Source of the DNA: Candidatus Gastranaerophilales bacterium
GTDB taxonomy: Bacteria; Cyanobacteriota; Vampirovibrionia; Gastranaerophilales; Gastranaerophilaceae
Reading direction: 5' to 3'
DNA length: 63,091 nucleotides
Assembly (NCBI GenBank): GCA_944325555.1
Contig: CALVAN010000011.1
Span: forward strand, 1 to 63,091
The notes beneath the pieces are model-generated. The model saw only the letters and a list, made by a program, of their open reading frames with translations. It did no database searches and was not told where the DNA came from. Positions 23,333 to 53,365 of the stretch are shown here, in pieces (positions within the stretch are counted from its first letter, which is position 1; the number at the start of each line of letters is the position of its first letter). A program made the translations under genes and the position numbers.

Positions 23333-23638
23333 TTATGCATTCAAGTTCAACTGGAAGTCGTTCTTAACGTTAGTATCCAAGATTTTCTGCATGCTTTCCA
23401 ATTCGGATGCTGCAGCTTTTTGTTGTGTTTCCAAGTTTTTCTGTTGCAATTCAAGGTAAGAATCCATAGCTTGCAACTGTTGAACTCTGGGGTCGCTTTC
23501 CCAGTCAACGTTTGATAACTGCATTGTCTGATAAGCAATCTGCTGTCTTTTGTTGCTTATAGAAGTGATGCTGTACTCTAAGTTGCTTTTGTACAACGTC
23601 AAAGACAATAATCTTGTGTTAATAGCCCCTATAGTCAT
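23333..23638 (-). CDS. Short member of the helix-capped 'MGMA-SQAR' protein family
   Basis: 101 residues: an N-terminal helix (INTRLLSLTLYKSNLEYSI), the link WESDPRVQQLQAMDSYLELQ, then a coiled coil ending LDTNVKNDF. This is the plan of the 107-aa protein at 53042-53365 (same EY after the first helix, DPxVxxL, and [LD]xxN[IV] x x x F at the end), and equals the two conserved ends of the 325- and 336-aa proteins at 49344 and 50592 without their central domain. AAGGAGAG precedes the ATG. No signal peptide. Function unknown. Confidence 0.75.
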   Translation of the reverse strand: MTIGAINTRLLSLTLYKSNLEYSITSISNKRQQIAYQTMQLSNVDWESDPRVQQLQAMDSYLELQQKNLETQQKAAASELESMQKILDTNVKNDFQLNLNA

Positions 23639-45251: not shown

Positions 45252-46070
45252 ATGTACGTTGCCATATTTAACACGAGTTTTAGCCAAAAAGTTACTCAAA
45301 GCAAACAAACAGACTCTGTAACCTCTACAGAGCAATCTAATCTTTTTAACAATCAACAATCAGTGGAAATTGACTCTACAAAAAGTCAATTAGTTGCCAA
45401 ACATATGACAGAAATGGCAACTGCAATGGATCTTGCTGATAAAATGATTAACAACAATGATATACTGAGCAAATTAAATGCCAATGACTTAACATCAGTA
45501 GCACTTAGCGCATCCTCTAAGGCAAATTCTATTATAAGCTCATTAAAGTCAGCAATTGGCTCATATGCTTCAGAAATTGCTGATATAATGAATAATCCGT
45601 TTTTGAGTGATTCGGAAAAAAAATCTAAAATAAAGCATATTGAAGACAAAATTAAAGCAGCAGCTCTTGAAGCTACTTCCAAGATTATGAATTTATATTT
45701 AATCTCGGAAATGATGGTAAGCCTCTCCTCTACAGTAGCAGCACTAAAAGGCAGCGGGTTTGATGTTTCAAAATTTACGTCAATATTAAAGCAGGCTCTA
45801 TCAAGTGTTAACATACAGCCTTCCGATTTTTCAGAAGCTTCAAATAAGTCTGAAATGTATGACATCATTGATAAAAACGAAAAAATGTTCTTTGGCAGCA
45901 ACGCAAGAGAAGCTATGCAAAAACAGGCGCACGAAGCGGATAAAATGCTTAAAGAAAACGAACGACTGCTGAAAAGAGATGACTTAACAAAAGAAGAAAG
46001 AAAGCGCATACAATCCGAAAATGTACTTTACAAAGCGGAAAAGAAGCTGTTTGAATCACTAACGGATTAA
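45252..46070 (+). CDS. Hypothetical helical protein
   Basis: 272 residues, S/N/Q/T-rich N-terminus without signal peptide, then almost all helical (AVALSASSKANSIISSLKSAIG-like middle, EKKSKIKHIEDKIKAAALEATSK) and a charged coiled-coil C-terminus (KMLKENERLLKRDDLTKEERK). AGGGGTG precedes the ATG. No family recognised. Composition resembles type III- or ESX-type secreted helical proteins and the family at 49344, but no sequence motif is shared. Confidence 0.7.
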   Translation: MYVAIFNTSFSQKVTQSKQTDSVTSTEQSNLFNNQQSVEIDSTKSQLVAKHMTEMATAMDLADKMINNNDILSKLNANDLTSVALSASSKANSIISSLKSAIGSYASEIADIMNNPFLSDSEKKSKIKHIEDKIKAAALEATSKIMNLYLISEMMVSLSSTVAALKGSGFDVSKFTSILKQALSSVNIQPSDFSEASNKSEMYDIIDKNEKMFFGSNAREAMQKQAHEADKMLKENERLLKRDDLTKEERKRIQSENVLYKAEKKLFESLTD

Positions 46071-46089
46071 TATACGCTACACTTAAATC

Positions 46090-47529
46090 TTATGCTACTC
46101 TGCCTTTAAAACTCTGTTCAAGCTGTCTTTCAATTTCAGATTGAACATGGAACTCTTTTTTGCCGTTTTGATGTTTTTCTCTGTATTTCATCATTGAATA
46201 CGGAACAATCAAGCCTAAGAACAGGCAAGTAATGCCCATATTGGCAGCTACTGAACCTATTTTCATATTTCTGCAGGACTTTAAGAAAGCACCTATATCT
46301 TTGTGCTTAACAGCCTGGTTATATAGCTTGTTAATGTTATTTGCACAACTGTCAATATCAGAGATTTTAATATATTTTTGCGGATCAATCTTATGAGTAT
46401 TGACTGCTTTACCGGTAAGTCTTTGCCACCAGTTTCCTTTAACAATTGTTTTAATTAGACCGGAATGTTTTGCGGCTTTAATAACCGTATTATCCTGATT
46501 TTTAGCATCATAAATGAATTCATAAAGAGCCTTTTTGGCATTGCTTAATTCAGCTTTTGCAGCTTCTGTTTTATTTGCTTTAAAATTTTCTTTGGCTGCA
46601 TTAACAGCGTTTGTTAAATTCTTAACCTCTTTTACGTCCTGTAAGGCCTTACCGCTAACAATAGAATCATTCATGTAGCCTGATGAAAGGACTTCTGCAT
46701 GCAGACCGATAGGCTTGCCTAATTTTTCACTGAGCTTTTCAATACCATCTTGTACGTATCTTCCGGCAACATACATAAAGAACAACAGACTGCCTTCTTT
46801 AATAGCTGTTTCAGCAAATTCTGTTTTTGTTCTGGAAGCAATAAGTCTTTCACCGGTAATGCCTGCATCGACAATAAATAAGTTTTTAACCGGATCAAAC
46901 ATAAAGCTGGATAATGTAGAAGCTAATCCTTTGAAAGCAACATTTTTGCCGTTAGCTTTTTTATGTTCATCTGCGGGCATGAAAGCTTTAAAAGCAGGAC
47001 TCTTTGCTACATTGTTACTATAGAAATGTTGTTCTGATTTTTTAGCCCAGAATTGTTTTTCAATTTCTTTTTTAGTGTAATGTTGTTTAACTTTAACTAA
47101 AGTAAAGAATGATGCAAGAGTTAAAGCCGTAGCTGCAGCGAATTTTCCCAGAAATAGCCCTTGTGCTTTTTTAGAATGTTTAACAACATTATCAAGTTTT
47201 TCTGCAATATTTGAGTTTTTAAGCGCTTTAGCATAATTTTGTGCTGCGCTTAATTGTTCTTTATCTTTTAATAATCTGACATCGACATCTGGACTTATTT
47301 TGGCAAGCTTATAAGCAGTAACATCAATAAGGGCTTTAAAACCGGGGAGTCCGCCCATCCAGATTGCCATAGTACCGAACTCATCCATGCCTCTGTCTTT
47401 TGCTTCTATTTTCCCGCCTGCGTCGTAAGAAAAAGCTGTCATCCCAGCGCTGTTCACGACATCTTTAGTAAACAAGGGGAGTAAATTTGAGTGATCGCCA
47501 TAAGTTGAAGTAAGTTTATTGATTAACAT
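46090..47529 (-). CDS. Hypothetical membrane-associated protein
   Basis: 479 residues. An N-terminal region (GMDEFGTMAIWMGGLPGFKAL), hydrophobic stretches at about 128-146 (GKFAAATALTLASFFTLV), about 245-262 and 435-452 (NMGITCLFLGLIVPYSMMKY), with helical lysine-rich parts between them. It resembles the plan of the 608-aa protein at 6659-8485. AAAGGA precedes the ATG. Function unknown; its 3' end faces the convergent hypothetical at 45252. Confidence 0.72.
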   Translation of the reverse strand: MLINKLTSTYGDHSNLLPLFTKDVVNSAGMTAFSYDAGGKIEAKDRGMDEFGTMAIWMGGLPGFKALIDVTAYKLAKISPDVDVRLLKDKEQLSAAQNYAKALKNSNIAEKLDNVVKHSKKAQGLFLGKFAAATALTLASFFTLVKVKQHYTKKEIEKQFWAKKSEQHFYSNNVAKSPAFKAFMPADEHKKANGKNVAFKGLASTLSSFMFDPVKNLFIVDAGITGERLIASRTKTEFAETAIKEGSLLFFMYVAGRYVQDGIEKLSEKLGKPIGLHAEVLSSGYMNDSIVSGKALQDVKEVKNLTNAVNAAKENFKANKTEAAKAELSNAKKALYEFIYDAKNQDNTVIKAAKHSGLIKTIVKGNWWQRLTGKAVNTHKIDPQKYIKISDIDSCANNINKLYNQAVKHKDIGAFLKSCRNMKIGSVAANMGITCLFLGLIVPYSMMKYREKHQNGKKEFHVQSEIERQLEQSFKGRVA

Positions 47530-49108: not shown

Positions 49109-49133
49109 TAAATCTGTATATATCAAATCAGCA

Positions 49134-49164
49134 GGCAGGAATATTCAATTCCTGCCTTTTTTTT
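49134..49164 (+). terminator. Terminator of ilvC
   Basis: GGCAGGAAT, loop ATTCA, ATTCCTGCC, then eight T residues. Confidence 0.93.
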
Positions 49165-49343: not shown

Positions 49344-50354
49344 ATGGGAATGGCAGCATCACAAGCCAGATACCTCGGCTTAACAGCAAGAAAGACAAAC
49401 GTTGAATATGAAGGCCAACAGGTTAACCAAGAAAGAACAGCATTGGCTAACCAGAGCGCCGGCTTATTCAACCAGATGTTGTCACTTAATGTGCCGACCC
49501 CTCCTGCTGCTACTGACTATACAAAAACAGAATATGTATTTACTGACAATTCAACAAGCCAAAAATACACAATTGACAGTATACATAAAAACCCCACTCC
49601 TGACGAAAACGGTGTTTACAGTTATACTATTTCTACATACAAATCTACAACAGATGTTTTATCTAACAGAACAGAAATAGTTAATTCAGGTACAGGTTCT
49701 GACAGATATACAATTGCTAAAGGTGAAGACGACACGTATACTATACAAATTGGTCACAACTCTTCACATACATTGATTGAGCCTCAAAAATACTCTGCAT
49801 TAACATCAAAATTTCAAGAAGCAGATGAAGATAATGTTGATAACATTACAGAAGATACTTACTTCTTCAAATTTACAGACGGTAAGGTTGAATACTACAT
49901 CCCTGCAACAAGTGCAGATGAAACTTTTGAAGAATTAATGGCAAGAGGAACAACATTGTCTATGTATTCAGCAGAAAGCATTGCTAAAACAGAATACAAA
50001 ACATACAATGATGCAGTTCTTGAATCAGCAGGTGACGGAACAGGAAGATATTCTTCCGTAACATTCACTAATGAAAATGGCGATAAAATAACTTGCAGTT
50101 TGACTCAACAAACTACACAAGATGATGAAGCTTATGACGCAGCAATGGAAACATACAATGCAGAAAAAGCTATCTATGAACAAACTATCGCACAAATCAA
50201 CGCACAAACTGAAATTATTCAACAACAAGATAAAACTCTTGAATTGCACTTAGACCAGTTAGACACTGAACAACAGGCAATTCAAACAGAAATGGACTCA
50301 GTTAAAAAGGTAATTGATAAAAACATAGAAGAAACATTCAAAACATTTGCATAA
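49344..50354 (+). CDS. Helix-capped variable-centre protein, 'MGMAASQAR' family, copy 1
   Basis: 336 residues. The N-terminus MGMAASQARYLGLTARKTN, followed by VEYEGQQVNQERTALANQSAGLF, is one long amphipathic helix. Residues about 50-250 are beta-rich, T/S/D/N-rich and unlike copy 2. From about 262 a coiled coil (ETYNAEKAIYEQTIAQI, LDQLDTEQQAIQTEMDSVKK) ends VIDKNIEETFKTFA. There is no signal peptide or membrane helix. Helical ends around a variable domain is the plan of flagellins and related type III-exported filament proteins, but no flagellin motif is present. AGGAG is 8 nt before the ATG; a terminator follows, so it is a separate unit. Confidence 0.85.
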   Translation: MGMAASQARYLGLTARKTNVEYEGQQVNQERTALANQSAGLFNQMLSLNVPTPPAATDYTKTEYVFTDNSTSQKYTIDSIHKNPTPDENGVYSYTISTYKSTTDVLSNRTEIVNSGTGSDRYTIAKGEDDTYTIQIGHNSSHTLIEPQKYSALTSKFQEADEDNVDNITEDTYFFKFTDGKVEYYIPATSADETFEELMARGTTLSMYSAESIAKTEYKTYNDAVLESAGDGTGRYSSVTFTNENGDKITCSLTQQTTQDDEAYDAAMETYNAEKAIYEQTIAQINAQTEIIQQQDKTLELHLDQLDTEQQAIQTEMDSVKKVIDKNIEETFKTFA

Positions 50355-50368
50355 TACTCCAATTTTTA

Positions 50369-50417
50369 ACCGGCTTTTTAATAGTCTGCTTGAAAATTAG
50401 AAAGCCGGTCATTATTT
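50369..50417 (+). terminator. Terminator after copy 1 of the MGMAASQAR family
   Basis: ACCGGCTTT (50369-50377) with AAAGCCGGT (50401-50409), 23-nt loop, then CATTATTTT. The long loop makes it weaker than the ilvC terminator. Confidence 0.6.
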
Positions 50418-50591
50418 TAAATTGAGAGTACTTCAAACAGAGGATTTTTCTTTTAAGAGACTTTAAAAATTGTTATATAAACATTTATAATTAAAGAAAT
50501 AAAACTTAATATATAATGCGTAAAATATGACAATTCAAGAAAGATAATTAAATTTTAATGGTTAGTAAGTTAAGAACGGAGACAAGACTAT

Positions 50592-51569
50592 ATGGGCATG
50601 GCAGCATCACAGGCGAGATACCTGGGCATTACAGCAAGAAAAATTAATATTGAGTATGAAGGTCAGCAGGTAAACCAGCAAAGAACAGCGCTGGCTAACG
50701 AGAGTGCTGGATTATTCCGCAGACTTATGTCGTTAGATTCACCAGTACCGCCGACACAATCTGATTATTATACAGATGTTTATCAATATAATGATCCGAC
50801 TACAACCGACGGGAAAGTTACTGTAAGCTCAGTTACACCAAACGAAGGGACTGACCCTCAAACTTATACTGTTATTGCTAAGTACAAAGAAGAAGTACCG
50901 CAATACAATGTTTCCAGCAATCAGACAGTTTATGTAAACAGCTCATCCAGCGGAAACAGAATATATTTGAGCAACGGTAATAACTACGAGCTTTCAAACA
51001 GCATTACCGACCTGCCTCAAGCTATGCTTGATGAACTAAATAAAAATCCTAATTTGACATATACAAATGAAACAACCGACCAGTATTATATGTTTACAAA
51101 TTCAAGTAACAATTCTACATATTATATTAATGCGACTAAAACAGGCTTTGATCCGACTACAGCCGGAAGTCAGACAGTAGATTTGTTAAGCAGCATGTCA
51201 GTTGAACAGGAAAAAACAAAGACAATTTCAAATGCAACTATGGGTACATCTTCATCAGGGCTGTATAACTCTATAGGCTGGACAGATGAAGACGGCTATG
51301 AGTACTACTATGACCTTTCTGTAGCACAAGAATACGATGAACAGGCATACAACGATGCAATGGATCAATATAACATTGATAAAGTTAAATATGAAAAAGA
51401 AGTTGCTGATATCAATGCTAAGACAGAAGAACTTCAGGAAACAGACAGAACTCTGGAATTGAAATTAAAACAATTGGATACCGAACAGGAAGCGCTGCAG
51501 ACTGAATTAGATTCTGTTAAGAAAGTTATTGATAAAAACGTTGAAAATGTATTTAAGACATTTCAATAA
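50592..51569 (+). CDS. Helix-capped variable-centre protein, 'MGMAASQAR' family, copy 2
   Basis: 325 residues. The first 45 residues are nearly identical to copy 1 (MGMAASQARYLGITARKIN, EYEGQQVNQQRTALANESAGLF), and so is the end (LKQLDTEQEALQTELDSVKK, VIDKNVENVFKTFQ). The central 200 residues, rich in N/T/S/Y, have no visible similarity to copy 1, which points to rapid divergence or replacement of the central domain. GGAGA lies 10 nt before the ATG. The glycine-rich gene at 51599 follows 29 bp later, so the genes up to 53365 may be co-transcribed. Confidence 0.85.
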   Translation: MGMAASQARYLGITARKINIEYEGQQVNQQRTALANESAGLFRRLMSLDSPVPPTQSDYYTDVYQYNDPTTTDGKVTVSSVTPNEGTDPQTYTVIAKYKEEVPQYNVSSNQTVYVNSSSSGNRIYLSNGNNYELSNSITDLPQAMLDELNKNPNLTYTNETTDQYYMFTNSSNNSTYYINATKTGFDPTTAGSQTVDLLSSMSVEQEKTKTISNATMGTSSSGLYNSIGWTDEDGYEYYYDLSVAQEYDEQAYNDAMDQYNIDKVKYEKEVADINAKTEELQETDRTLELKLKQLDTEQEALQTELDSVKKVIDKNVENVFKTFQ

Positions 51570-51598
51570 TTAGATAGTTAGAATTATGTGAGGGCACT

Positions 51599-52426
51599 AT
51601 GTCTTATAAAAATGACGGATATCTTGTAATAGCAAATAAATTCGGAAAAGCAAGCTCTGATGCAAAAGCGGAACTGTTCGAAACATACGACCGTTTAAGA
51701 GATTTAACAGTAAGCGGTTCAGCTCTTGACGGAGGCGGTTTTGGTACAGCCGGAAGCTTTTTATGGCAAATCGCAAGATTAATTTCGCCAAGTGCCTTCA
51801 TGCCTATTATGGGCGGCAATACCACAATGAATATTCCGGGTACATCCTATTGGACACCTATTAGCGGTGGTAACTCAATACTCGACAGCGGTAGTGCAGC
51901 GTTTGGTATTACAGACCTTGGTAACTATCCTGGATTTCCAAGCGGTGCAGCACCTGTTGCCTGGGGATTCGGTATGGATACTAGCTATAGCGGCGGTACA
52001 GTAACAGGCGGTGCTTCAAGCTTGTATTCAGCAAGCAGCATTGGCGGTTCAGTAGGTCTTAATGCTGCGGCATACGGTGCAGGAGTTGCATCAGGCTTTG
52101 GTGTCCCGGGGACTAGCTGGGTATTGCCGACAGCCGGTATAGTTTCAGGTTTTGCAGGGGTAGTTCAAGCTATGGCTCCTTATATGGGTGGTTTCGGTCT
52201 TGGAGCCACCGTATTAGGAAACTTGTTACAAGGAACATCATCGGCTGGTCTTGCTGCATACCAAAATATTTCCGGAAGCATTTTATCTAACGCTGATACA
52301 ATACTTTCCAACAAAGTCAGAAATATCGAAACTGTTGTAAAAATGCTTGATACACAGGGCGATATAGTTAAAAAGATGCTGAAAGATGATATAGAAGGTA
52401 ACAGCAAACAAGTTCAAAATATGTAA
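51599..52426 (+). CDS. Glycine-rich hydrophobic hypothetical protein
   Basis: 275 residues. The first 45 residues are helical and charged (KNDGYLVIANKFGKASSDAKA), the middle (about 45-215) is very rich in G/A/S with weakly hydrophobic runs (GIVSGFAGVVQAMAPYMGGFGLGATVLG), and the last 50 form a helix (NADTILSNKVRNIETVVKML). No signal peptide. The composition recalls secreted or pore-forming, glycine-zipper type proteins. GAGGG precedes the ATG. It sits between copy 2 and the short members of the helix-capped family, so it is probably part of the same system. Confidence 0.75.
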   Translation: MSYKNDGYLVIANKFGKASSDAKAELFETYDRLRDLTVSGSALDGGGFGTAGSFLWQIARLISPSAFMPIMGGNTTMNIPGTSYWTPISGGNSILDSGSAAFGITDLGNYPGFPSGAAPVAWGFGMDTSYSGGTVTGGASSLYSASSIGGSVGLNAAAYGAGVASGFGVPGTSWVLPTAGIVSGFAGVVQAMAPYMGGFGLGATVLGNLLQGTSSAGLAAYQNISGSILSNADTILSNKVRNIETVVKMLDTQGDIVKKMLKDDIEGNSKQVQNM

Positions 52427-52439
52427 TTTTAGGGGTTAT

Positions 52440-52649
52440 ATGACACACAAACAAACGATGGCAGATGTTAATATACTGGCATTATCTGTTCTGTTTAAAA
52501 ATATTGTAACTTTTTATTACAATATCTTTTTTAATCACTCAGATTTATTAAAGAAAACAAAAGATTTGCCGATAGATAAATCAGAACATAAAAACTGTTT
52601 AGCTTTTCTAAAGGCAGCAGTAAGCACAAATATTAACTTTATATATTAA
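52440..52649 (+). CDS. Small hypothetical protein in the MGMAASQAR cluster
   Basis: 69 residues with no recognised family; a mildly hydrophobic N-terminal half (ILALSVLFKNIVTFYYNIFF) and a charged second half. TTAGGGG lies 4 nt before the ATG and the gene follows the glycine-rich gene by 13 bp, which supports it. Weak information content, so confidence is moderate. Confidence 0.5.
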   Translation: MTHKQTMADVNILALSVLFKNIVTFYYNIFFNHSDLLKKTKDLPIDKSEHKNCLAFLKAAVSTNINFIY

Positions 52650-52740
52650 GAAATATTAAATATTTCAAGATATGAAGCAATAATATTTGTTGTTCTGTTT
52701 TTATTGTTATGTAGGTGTCCAAGTGGACAAGGAGTAAACA

Positions 52741-53013
52741 TTGTTTCAAGCAGCTTTAATGACAAACTTGCAAAAAATAGTTAACTTCTTTGGTTACTTG
52801 ATGTCTTATCTGAGAAGGCACAATCCGCTGCAAATTTTTCTCGCTCAAATTACAGCAATGGTAAAAGATTACCTTACTATGAACCGAAAACTAAAAATGG
52901 CAAAGTACAGAGTAAACTACCAGATGTACAAATTGAACCAGATGGAGCAGCTGATTGCAGAAAACAACGAACACGTTTTCCTCAGAGGAAACAAAATCAA
53001 CCTGCAAAGATAA
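52741..53013 (+). CDS. Small basic amphipathic protein in the MGMAASQAR cluster, TTG start
   Basis: 90 residues. It starts with TTG: AAGGAG ends 6 nt before it and no ATG is as well placed. The N-terminal half is amphipathic and hydrophobic (KIVNFFGYLMSYLRRHNPL, QIFLAQITAMVKDYL), the second half is basic and helical (RKLKMAKYRVNYQMYKLNQM). The inverted repeat TGTCCA-AG-TGGACA at 52717-52730 directly precedes the ribosome binding site and could tune translation. No family recognised. Confidence 0.7.
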   Translation: MFQAALMTNLQKIVNFFGYLMSYLRRHNPLQIFLAQITAMVKDYLTMNRKLKMAKYRVNYQMYKLNQMEQLIAENNEHVFLRGNKINLQR

Positions 53014-53041
53014 TTACTAACTAGACAAGGGTGGTCCTATT

Positions 53042-53365
53042 ATGGGCATGGCTACTGCACAACTTAGATTAATGTATTTGAATGCTTACAGGCTTGATCT
53101 TGAGTACAAGATACACTTGATTGCCGAAGCTAAGATGAATTTGTCAAAAACATGCACTGACCTTCTTAACGTCGGCAGCGATTTAGATGCTGATGATCCT
53201 CTTGTTAAAAAGCTTGAAGCCCGCAAAGAACGTTTAAACGTAATGGAAAAACAACTCGATATGAAAATGGAACATTACAAACAAACTTTGCAAATGATTG
53301 AAACAGAGTACTCATCTTGCGAACAAATGCTTCAAAAAAATATTGAGCGTTCATTCAAATACTAA
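53042..53365 (+). CDS. Short member of the helix-capped MGMA family
   Basis: 107 residues. MGMATAQLRLMYLNAYRLD followed by LEYKIHLIAEAK is the N-terminal helix of the family; DADDPLVKKLEARKERL and a coiled coil ending LQKNIERSFKY are the C-terminal part. It corresponds to copies 1 and 2 without the central domain, and to the 101-aa protein at 23333. GGGTGGT precedes the ATG. Its stop lies 5 bp from the end of the convergent protease gene. Confidence 0.8.
   Translation: MGMATAQLRLMYLNAYRLDLEYKIHLIAEAKMNLSKTCTDLLNVGSDLDADDPLVKKLEARKERLNVMEKQLDMKMEHYKQTLQMIETEYSSCEQMLQKNIERSFKY

Follow-up and report, generated by a model that had tools for sequence, protein, structure and literature searches.

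The axial proteins of the bacterial flagellum (FliC, FlgL/HAP3, FliD, FlgE and FlgG) have no signal peptide and carry conserved helical ends around a variable β-rich centre, with multiple paralogues. The needle subunits of injectisomes follow another plan, a small helical hairpin with a D-P turn. Gastranaerophilales, the gut relatives of cyanobacteria within Vampirovibrionia, are found widely among animals and remain for the most part uncultured; loss of flagella has been described for many of them. Their partial flagellar gene sets were read as reduction or loss by Di Rienzi et al. (PMC3787301) and Soo et al. (PMC4040986); in ACD20, the gene order is flgG, flgG, flgC, fliF, fliH, flhA, fliI (PMC3787301). 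The Myxococcales-type NF-T3SS, a conserved and vertically inherited non-flagellar system that was earlier taken for a relic, is devoid of FlgB, FlgC, FliE and FliG (PMC3459982). A literature search, outside which subscription journals mostly fell, found no description of a type III secretion system in Gastranaerophilales.

The DNA studied here, called the window below, is the whole stretch of 63,091 nt from Candidatus Gastranaerophilales bacterium (GCA_944325555.1, contig CALVAN010000011.1, positions 1-63,091, forward strand); the genome outside the window (G000) was examined as stretches. Downstream of ilvC and a terminator-like hairpin, six ORFs were found at 49344-53365, all on the same strand, in agreement with the six-gene cluster described by the initial annotation. 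The features are as follows.

49133..49157, + strand: terminator-like hairpin 3' of ilvC, setting ilvC apart from the cluster (consensus match only)
49344..50354, + strand: helix-capped copy 1, 336 aa, predicted N-helix 2-47, β-rich centre 60-259, C-helix 261-335 (ORF, AlphaFold)
50592..51569, + strand: helix-capped copy 2, 325 aa, paralogous to copy 1 but diverged in the centre (ORF, alignment)
51599..52426, + strand: glycine-rich protein, 275 aa, 16% Gly (ORF, composition, neighbourhood)
52440..52649, + strand: small protein, 69 aa, hydrophobic N-terminus (ORF)
52741..53013, + strand: small protein, 90 aa, TTG start, conserved in the order (ORF, relatives)
53042..53365, + strand: ends-only member, 107 aa, putative helix, D-P turn, helix (ORF, profile-profile)
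23333..23638, - strand: further ends-only paralogue, 101 aa, outside the cluster coordinates (sequence match)

Scans for ribosome-site patterns and promoters were uninformative. Two proteins beside ilvC, at 45252-46070 (+) and 46090-47529 (-), keep their position near the cluster in relatives of the genus; their family matches are weak and at chance level. As had been observed earlier, no flagellar or secretion machinery was recognised among the window genes.

Copies 1 and 2 share the N-terminus MGMAASQARYLG and the C-terminal end KKVIDKN(I/V)E..FKTF. The nearly identical helical ends noticed by the initial annotation are indeed common to both, with 81% identity over N 1-47 and 63% over C 261-335, and the first 126 bases of their DNA are 82% identical. 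On the other hand, its description of the centres as unrelated is too strong, since these align with 26% identity over 143 aa (two-sequence E 7e-7) and are diverged homologues. Among 52 family members, the mean pairwise identity is 82% for the N-end and 67% for the C-end versus 20% for the centre. The gene at 53042 does correspond to the two ends joined, matching them in a profile-profile comparison with a probability of 99.1 (E 5e-19, 101 columns), in support of homology over the full length of the protein; the same comparison of the ends-only family with outgroup ends-only proteins gave 99.8. The presumed lack of a signal peptide also holds, with hydropathy peaking at 0.33-0.39 in the N-terminal region of the two copies. 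More family members, of 131-224 aa, are encoded elsewhere in the window's genome. Overall, family size ranges from 100 to about 680 aa, and single genomes have from several up to a dozen matches.

The AlphaFold model of copy 1 (monomer, 52 aligned family members; mean pLDDT 83.6, pTM 0.46) predicts a 46-residue N-helix (2-47) and a 75-residue C-helix (261-335) flanking a β-rich domain (60-259), an arrangement of the flagellar axial type with long terminal helices on either side of a β-rich centre. When copy 1 was aligned structurally, 22 of the 27 best rows fell to flagellar axial proteins (flagellins, FliD, FlgL/HAP3, hook or rod proteins), with Z from 9.2 to 6; the tool rates such values as middling and cautions that they may stem from a common arrangement. 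The VIA alignments on flagellins span both helices (Z ≤9.2, for a monomer-only model with pTM 0.46). Foldseek placed flagellins in its first rows, at E 0.01 and with low TM-scores, and none of its matches reached an E below 1e-3. Given the caution on Z and the Foldseek E-values, these matches support a common plan, not homology.

Sequence searches gave no relatives. The six cluster proteins had no match above cut-off in Pfam, NCBIfam or PHROGs, and none to Pfam flagellin (PF00669 and relatives). Eleven ends-only members had no meaningful Pfam match at E up to 10; although they resemble injectisome needle subunits in size and plan, a small putative hairpin with a D-P turn, no needle family (SctF, PF09392) occurred among the best 25 of 26 Pfam families at E ≤10. 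Profile-profile comparison of the ends with flagellin, FlgL, FliE, FlgB, FlgC and FlgG gave probabilities under 1%, so that no homology was detectable, and that of the ends-only family with the flagellins of the same organisms gave 0.8%. Searching the sequences of solved structures with three profiles produced only chance-level coiled-coil or unrelated matches. The helix-capped family is without counterpart in the sequence-family libraries searched. It shares the general plan of flagellar axial proteins but differs from them by this lack of detectable homology, by its 100-110 aa ends-only members, by its tie to a different machine and by its retention in genomes without flagellin.

This machine was found in the window's genome, which encodes a true flagellum and a second, separate flagellum-derived type III machine. 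Like the flagellar basal body, the latter has FlgB, FlgC, two FlgF/G-like proteins, FliE, FliF, FliH, FliI, FlhA, a FliO-like protein, FliP and FliR; the set is completed by a FliG-position protein, a muramidase, a C-ring protein with tandem SpoA domains and a FliQ-like protein, the last assigned only from its position and the look of its sequence. MS-ring, rod, FliE, export gate and ATPase are therefore all present, and genes for a hook, a filament or a P-ring were not seen alongside the second machine in this genome. Its FlhA lies in an operon with FliF, the FliG-position protein, FliH and a FliI-type ATPase (G000:C6); genes for FlgB-, FlgC- and FlgG-type rod proteins, a lytic transglycosylase and FliE are grouped at G000:C3, and those for the tandem-SpoA protein, FliO-like, FliP, FliQ-like and FliR at G000:C2. 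In two early-branching families, the genes for rod, muramidase, FliE, FliF, FliG-position protein, FliH and FlhA, identified by profile, form a single operon.

Some further proteins were noticed in this genome. In the second export gate, the FliQ-like and FliR genes are separated by a gene for a secreted-looking 123-aa protein (L152:8202-8573, G000:C2), which matches weakly a pilus/secretin N-domain (PF13629, E 0.06). A 694-aa protein (L135:5893-7977, - strand, G000:C20) starts like the FliG-position protein of the second machine and ends, over residues 291-689, like the FlhA cytoplasmic domain (47% identity); judged from its sequence, the window's genome has here an additional, fused copy. 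A 486-aa protein (L134:5083-6543, G000:C16) has the FlhA C-terminal domain only, behind an unrelated N-terminus, and similar proteins occur in many genomes of the order.

The second machine was compared with curated models. It differs from the flagellar basal body by its tandem-SpoA C-ring protein and by FlhA, FliI, FliF, FlgF, FlgG and FliR, which score below the curated flagellar cut-offs; FlgB, FlgC, FliE and FliP score above them. Scores also stay below the cut-offs of the curated injectisome models (SctV 590 of 692 bits, SctN 532 of 605, SctJ 61 of 162 and SctQ 51 of 101) and, unlike injectisomes, the second machine retains flagellar rod genes. It resembles the Myxococcales-type NF-T3SS in being a conserved, vertically inherited and non-flagellar system formerly read as a relic, but differs from it by the presence of FlgB, FlgC and FliE.

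FHIPEP matches are found in 192 of 192 genomes of the order; among the matches listed, the flagellar FlhA class is present in 70 of these genomes and missing from 122. In the window's genome, the two main FlhA classes score ~870 bits (flagellar) and ~725 bits (second type) against FHIPEP. In a tree of 25 FlhA proteins (midpoint rooting, with long-branch warnings for E. coli), E. coli FlhA groups with the flagellar FlhA of the class with a support of 100/100, and the second-type FlhA forms its own clade, apart from the flagellar one, with two well-supported branches. One branch is tied to helix-capped genes; the sister branch occurs in families f10-f12, where no helix-capped genes were detected. 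Loci of the sister branch are L153, L155 and L157-L161. One genome with this FlhA (G206) has neither flagellin nor FlgI and so may build something else with its machine.

The distribution of the helix-capped family was assessed in 80 genomes of the class, with E ≤1e-6 for the family and at least 60% identity for second-type FlhA. The family is present in 36 genomes, and 35 of these carry second-type FlhA (one match being a fragment); the sole exception is a genome that is 56% complete. Among the 44 family-negative genomes, none has it at this threshold. In a phylum-wide draw of 386 genomes, the family was confined, among the matches listed, to families of Vampirovibrionia. Physical linkage was seen in 29 genomes from seven genera, where second-type FlhA is preceded on its own strand, at a distance of 7.8-14.8 kb, by a helix-capped gene. 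At the seven loci examined, the cluster precedes the second-machine FliF (gene order seen in L100, L046 and L140), one order being helix-capped, glycine-rich, 90 aa, ends-only, a few genes, FliE, FliF, FliG-position, FliH and FlhA. A lack of co-occurrence with any export machinery, named by the initial annotation as a refuting outcome, was thus not what was found: the family occurs together with this machine across genomes and neighbours it in 29 of them. These counts are not independent events because the lineages are related, and the co-occurrence, which follows phylogeny, may reflect few events. Coupling of the helix-capped family to the second machine is well supported.

The arrangement of end-capped, glycine-rich, small and ends-only proteins is kept across much of the class Vampirovibrionia. 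The glycine-rich gene, usually in a single copy per genome, directly follows a helix-capped gene across much of the class; it is present in 31 of the 36 family-positive genomes, with a single marginal match elsewhere. Its AlphaFold model is of low confidence (mean pLDDT 41.8) and uninformative; from composition and gene position, the protein could possibly be a tip, cap, translocator or membrane-active partner. ORFs of 75-79 aa occupy the position of the 69-aa protein in outgroups, and the 90-aa protein may be a chaperone or a minor substrate. Near the cluster of another genome, a protein of 1108 aa was noticed that contains an Asp-Ala repeat tract of great length (L046:927-4253).

We consider it reasonably probable that the cluster encodes substrates of this flagellum-derived second machine, which exists apart from the swimming flagellum. 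The helix-capped proteins would be exported by this machine without a cleaved signal and would polymerise into an axial or surface structure. Their N- and C-helices could pack as the core of a structure growing on the rod, with the fast-evolving centre displayed on its outside. Ends-only members may form a plain tube or an adaptor, comparable to flagellar junction proteins or needle subunits; the glycine-rich protein would serve as tip, cap or membrane-active partner, and the 69-aa and 90-aa proteins as chaperones or minor subunits. This reading leaves the crossing of the outer membrane by a rod without P-ring unaccounted for. Also weighing against it are the lack of detectable sequence homology to flagellar axial proteins, the separate contigs of cluster and machine in the window's genome, and families f10-f12, in which a related FlhA is kept but helix-capped genes were not detected.

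The co-occurrence and linkage data fit equally well with proteins that belong to the second machine but stay on the cytoplasmic side, as helical scaffolds, chaperones or sorting-platform parts, and the helical ends-only members do resemble cytoplasmic coiled coils. We regard such an intracellular role as unlikely, though the most plausible of the alternatives: a β-rich centre with a mean identity of only 20%, next to ends at 67-82%, and sizes from 100 to about 680 aa suit outside exposure better than a conserved intracellular interface, and the several to a dozen family matches per genome also argue against it.

The history of the centre bears on another possibility, namely that the second machine exports these proteins without polymerisation, the ends acting as export or chaperone tags on secreted proteins with differing centres. 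The end-capped gene beside the glycine-rich gene encodes a 109-aa, ends-only protein in the outgroup families f9 and f15, 137 aa in f4, 249 aa in f7 and ~320-440 aa in f1. Since the outgroup form consists of the ends only, the centre looks like a later insertion; it may have grown stepwise inside the hairpin loop, with the direction read from the outgroups. Constant ends with variable centres, and many paralogues scattered in the genome, would suit tags. However, cargo-free ends-only members are conserved and are the very form that two outgroup families carry next to the glycine-rich gene. Moreover, known type III effectors have N-terminal export signals, which double-ended tags do not resemble. 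Export of tagged, non-polymerising proteins thus appears somewhat less probable still than an intracellular role.

A cluster with no relation to type III export, linked to the machine through shared inheritance in one lineage, is very improbable. Both features do appear vertically inherited, and in the window's own genome they lie on different contigs. Against this stand the same-strand linkage within a narrow 8-15 kb in 29 genomes of seven genera, the absence of both the helix-capped family and second FlhA from families f8 and f13, and the situation in f10-f12, where only the sister FlhA branch occurs and the helix-capped family is missing.

The independence of the cluster from the swimming flagellum is apparent from six genomes of 99% completeness that have only the second machine: neither the flagellin N-domain (PF00669) nor the P-ring protein FlgI was found in them, yet each has 12 family matches. 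FliP copy number follows the same division, with two in all five flagellated genomes tested and one in all six second-machine-only genomes. Because genomes without flagellin or P-ring gene retain the family, the helix-capped proteins are not those of the ordinary flagellum, and an accessory role there was rejected. Hence, a role as accessory flagellins or hook-associated proteins, despite their flagellin-like layout, best structural matches to flagellar axial proteins and the six flagellin-domain matches in the window's genome, is scarcely credible, as family f10 also has flagellar-type FlhA without the helix-capped family, and no profile similarity to FlgL or to flagellins of the same organisms was found. 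The flagellin-like, type III-exported plan put forward by the initial annotation is strongly, though indirectly, supported by the predicted fold, the flagellar structural matches and the tracking of a type III machine, but not as part of the ordinary flagellum; secretion and polymerisation would follow from this reading.

Going beyond substrates of the second machine, we propose, more tentatively and with less than balanced confidence, that much of the class builds a third type III nanomachine, neither flagellum nor injectisome. In it, a flagellum-derived basal body and rod would extrude a surface fibre, whose subunits would have been independently invented from a ~109-aa helical hairpin and have gained variable outer domains later. 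The partial flagellar sets of PMC3787301 and PMC4040986 are probably genes of the second machine, since the ACD20 order matches single operons at L138 and L139. Compared with those published sets, the second machine coexists here with a full flagellum in one genome and has its own FliP, its own FlhA and its own associated cluster. Together with the cluster that most likely encodes its exports, it suggests that the published decaying flagellum is probably a working surface structure.

Collectively, these data recast leftover flagellar genes as a conserved machine that is encoded separately and has a gene cluster of its own linked to it, in a class that includes common gut commensals. If this is true, the machine would represent a new branch in type III evolution and provide candidate surface structures facing the host gut. 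A small helical hairpin would also appear to have given rise, step by step, to an architecture like that of flagellin.
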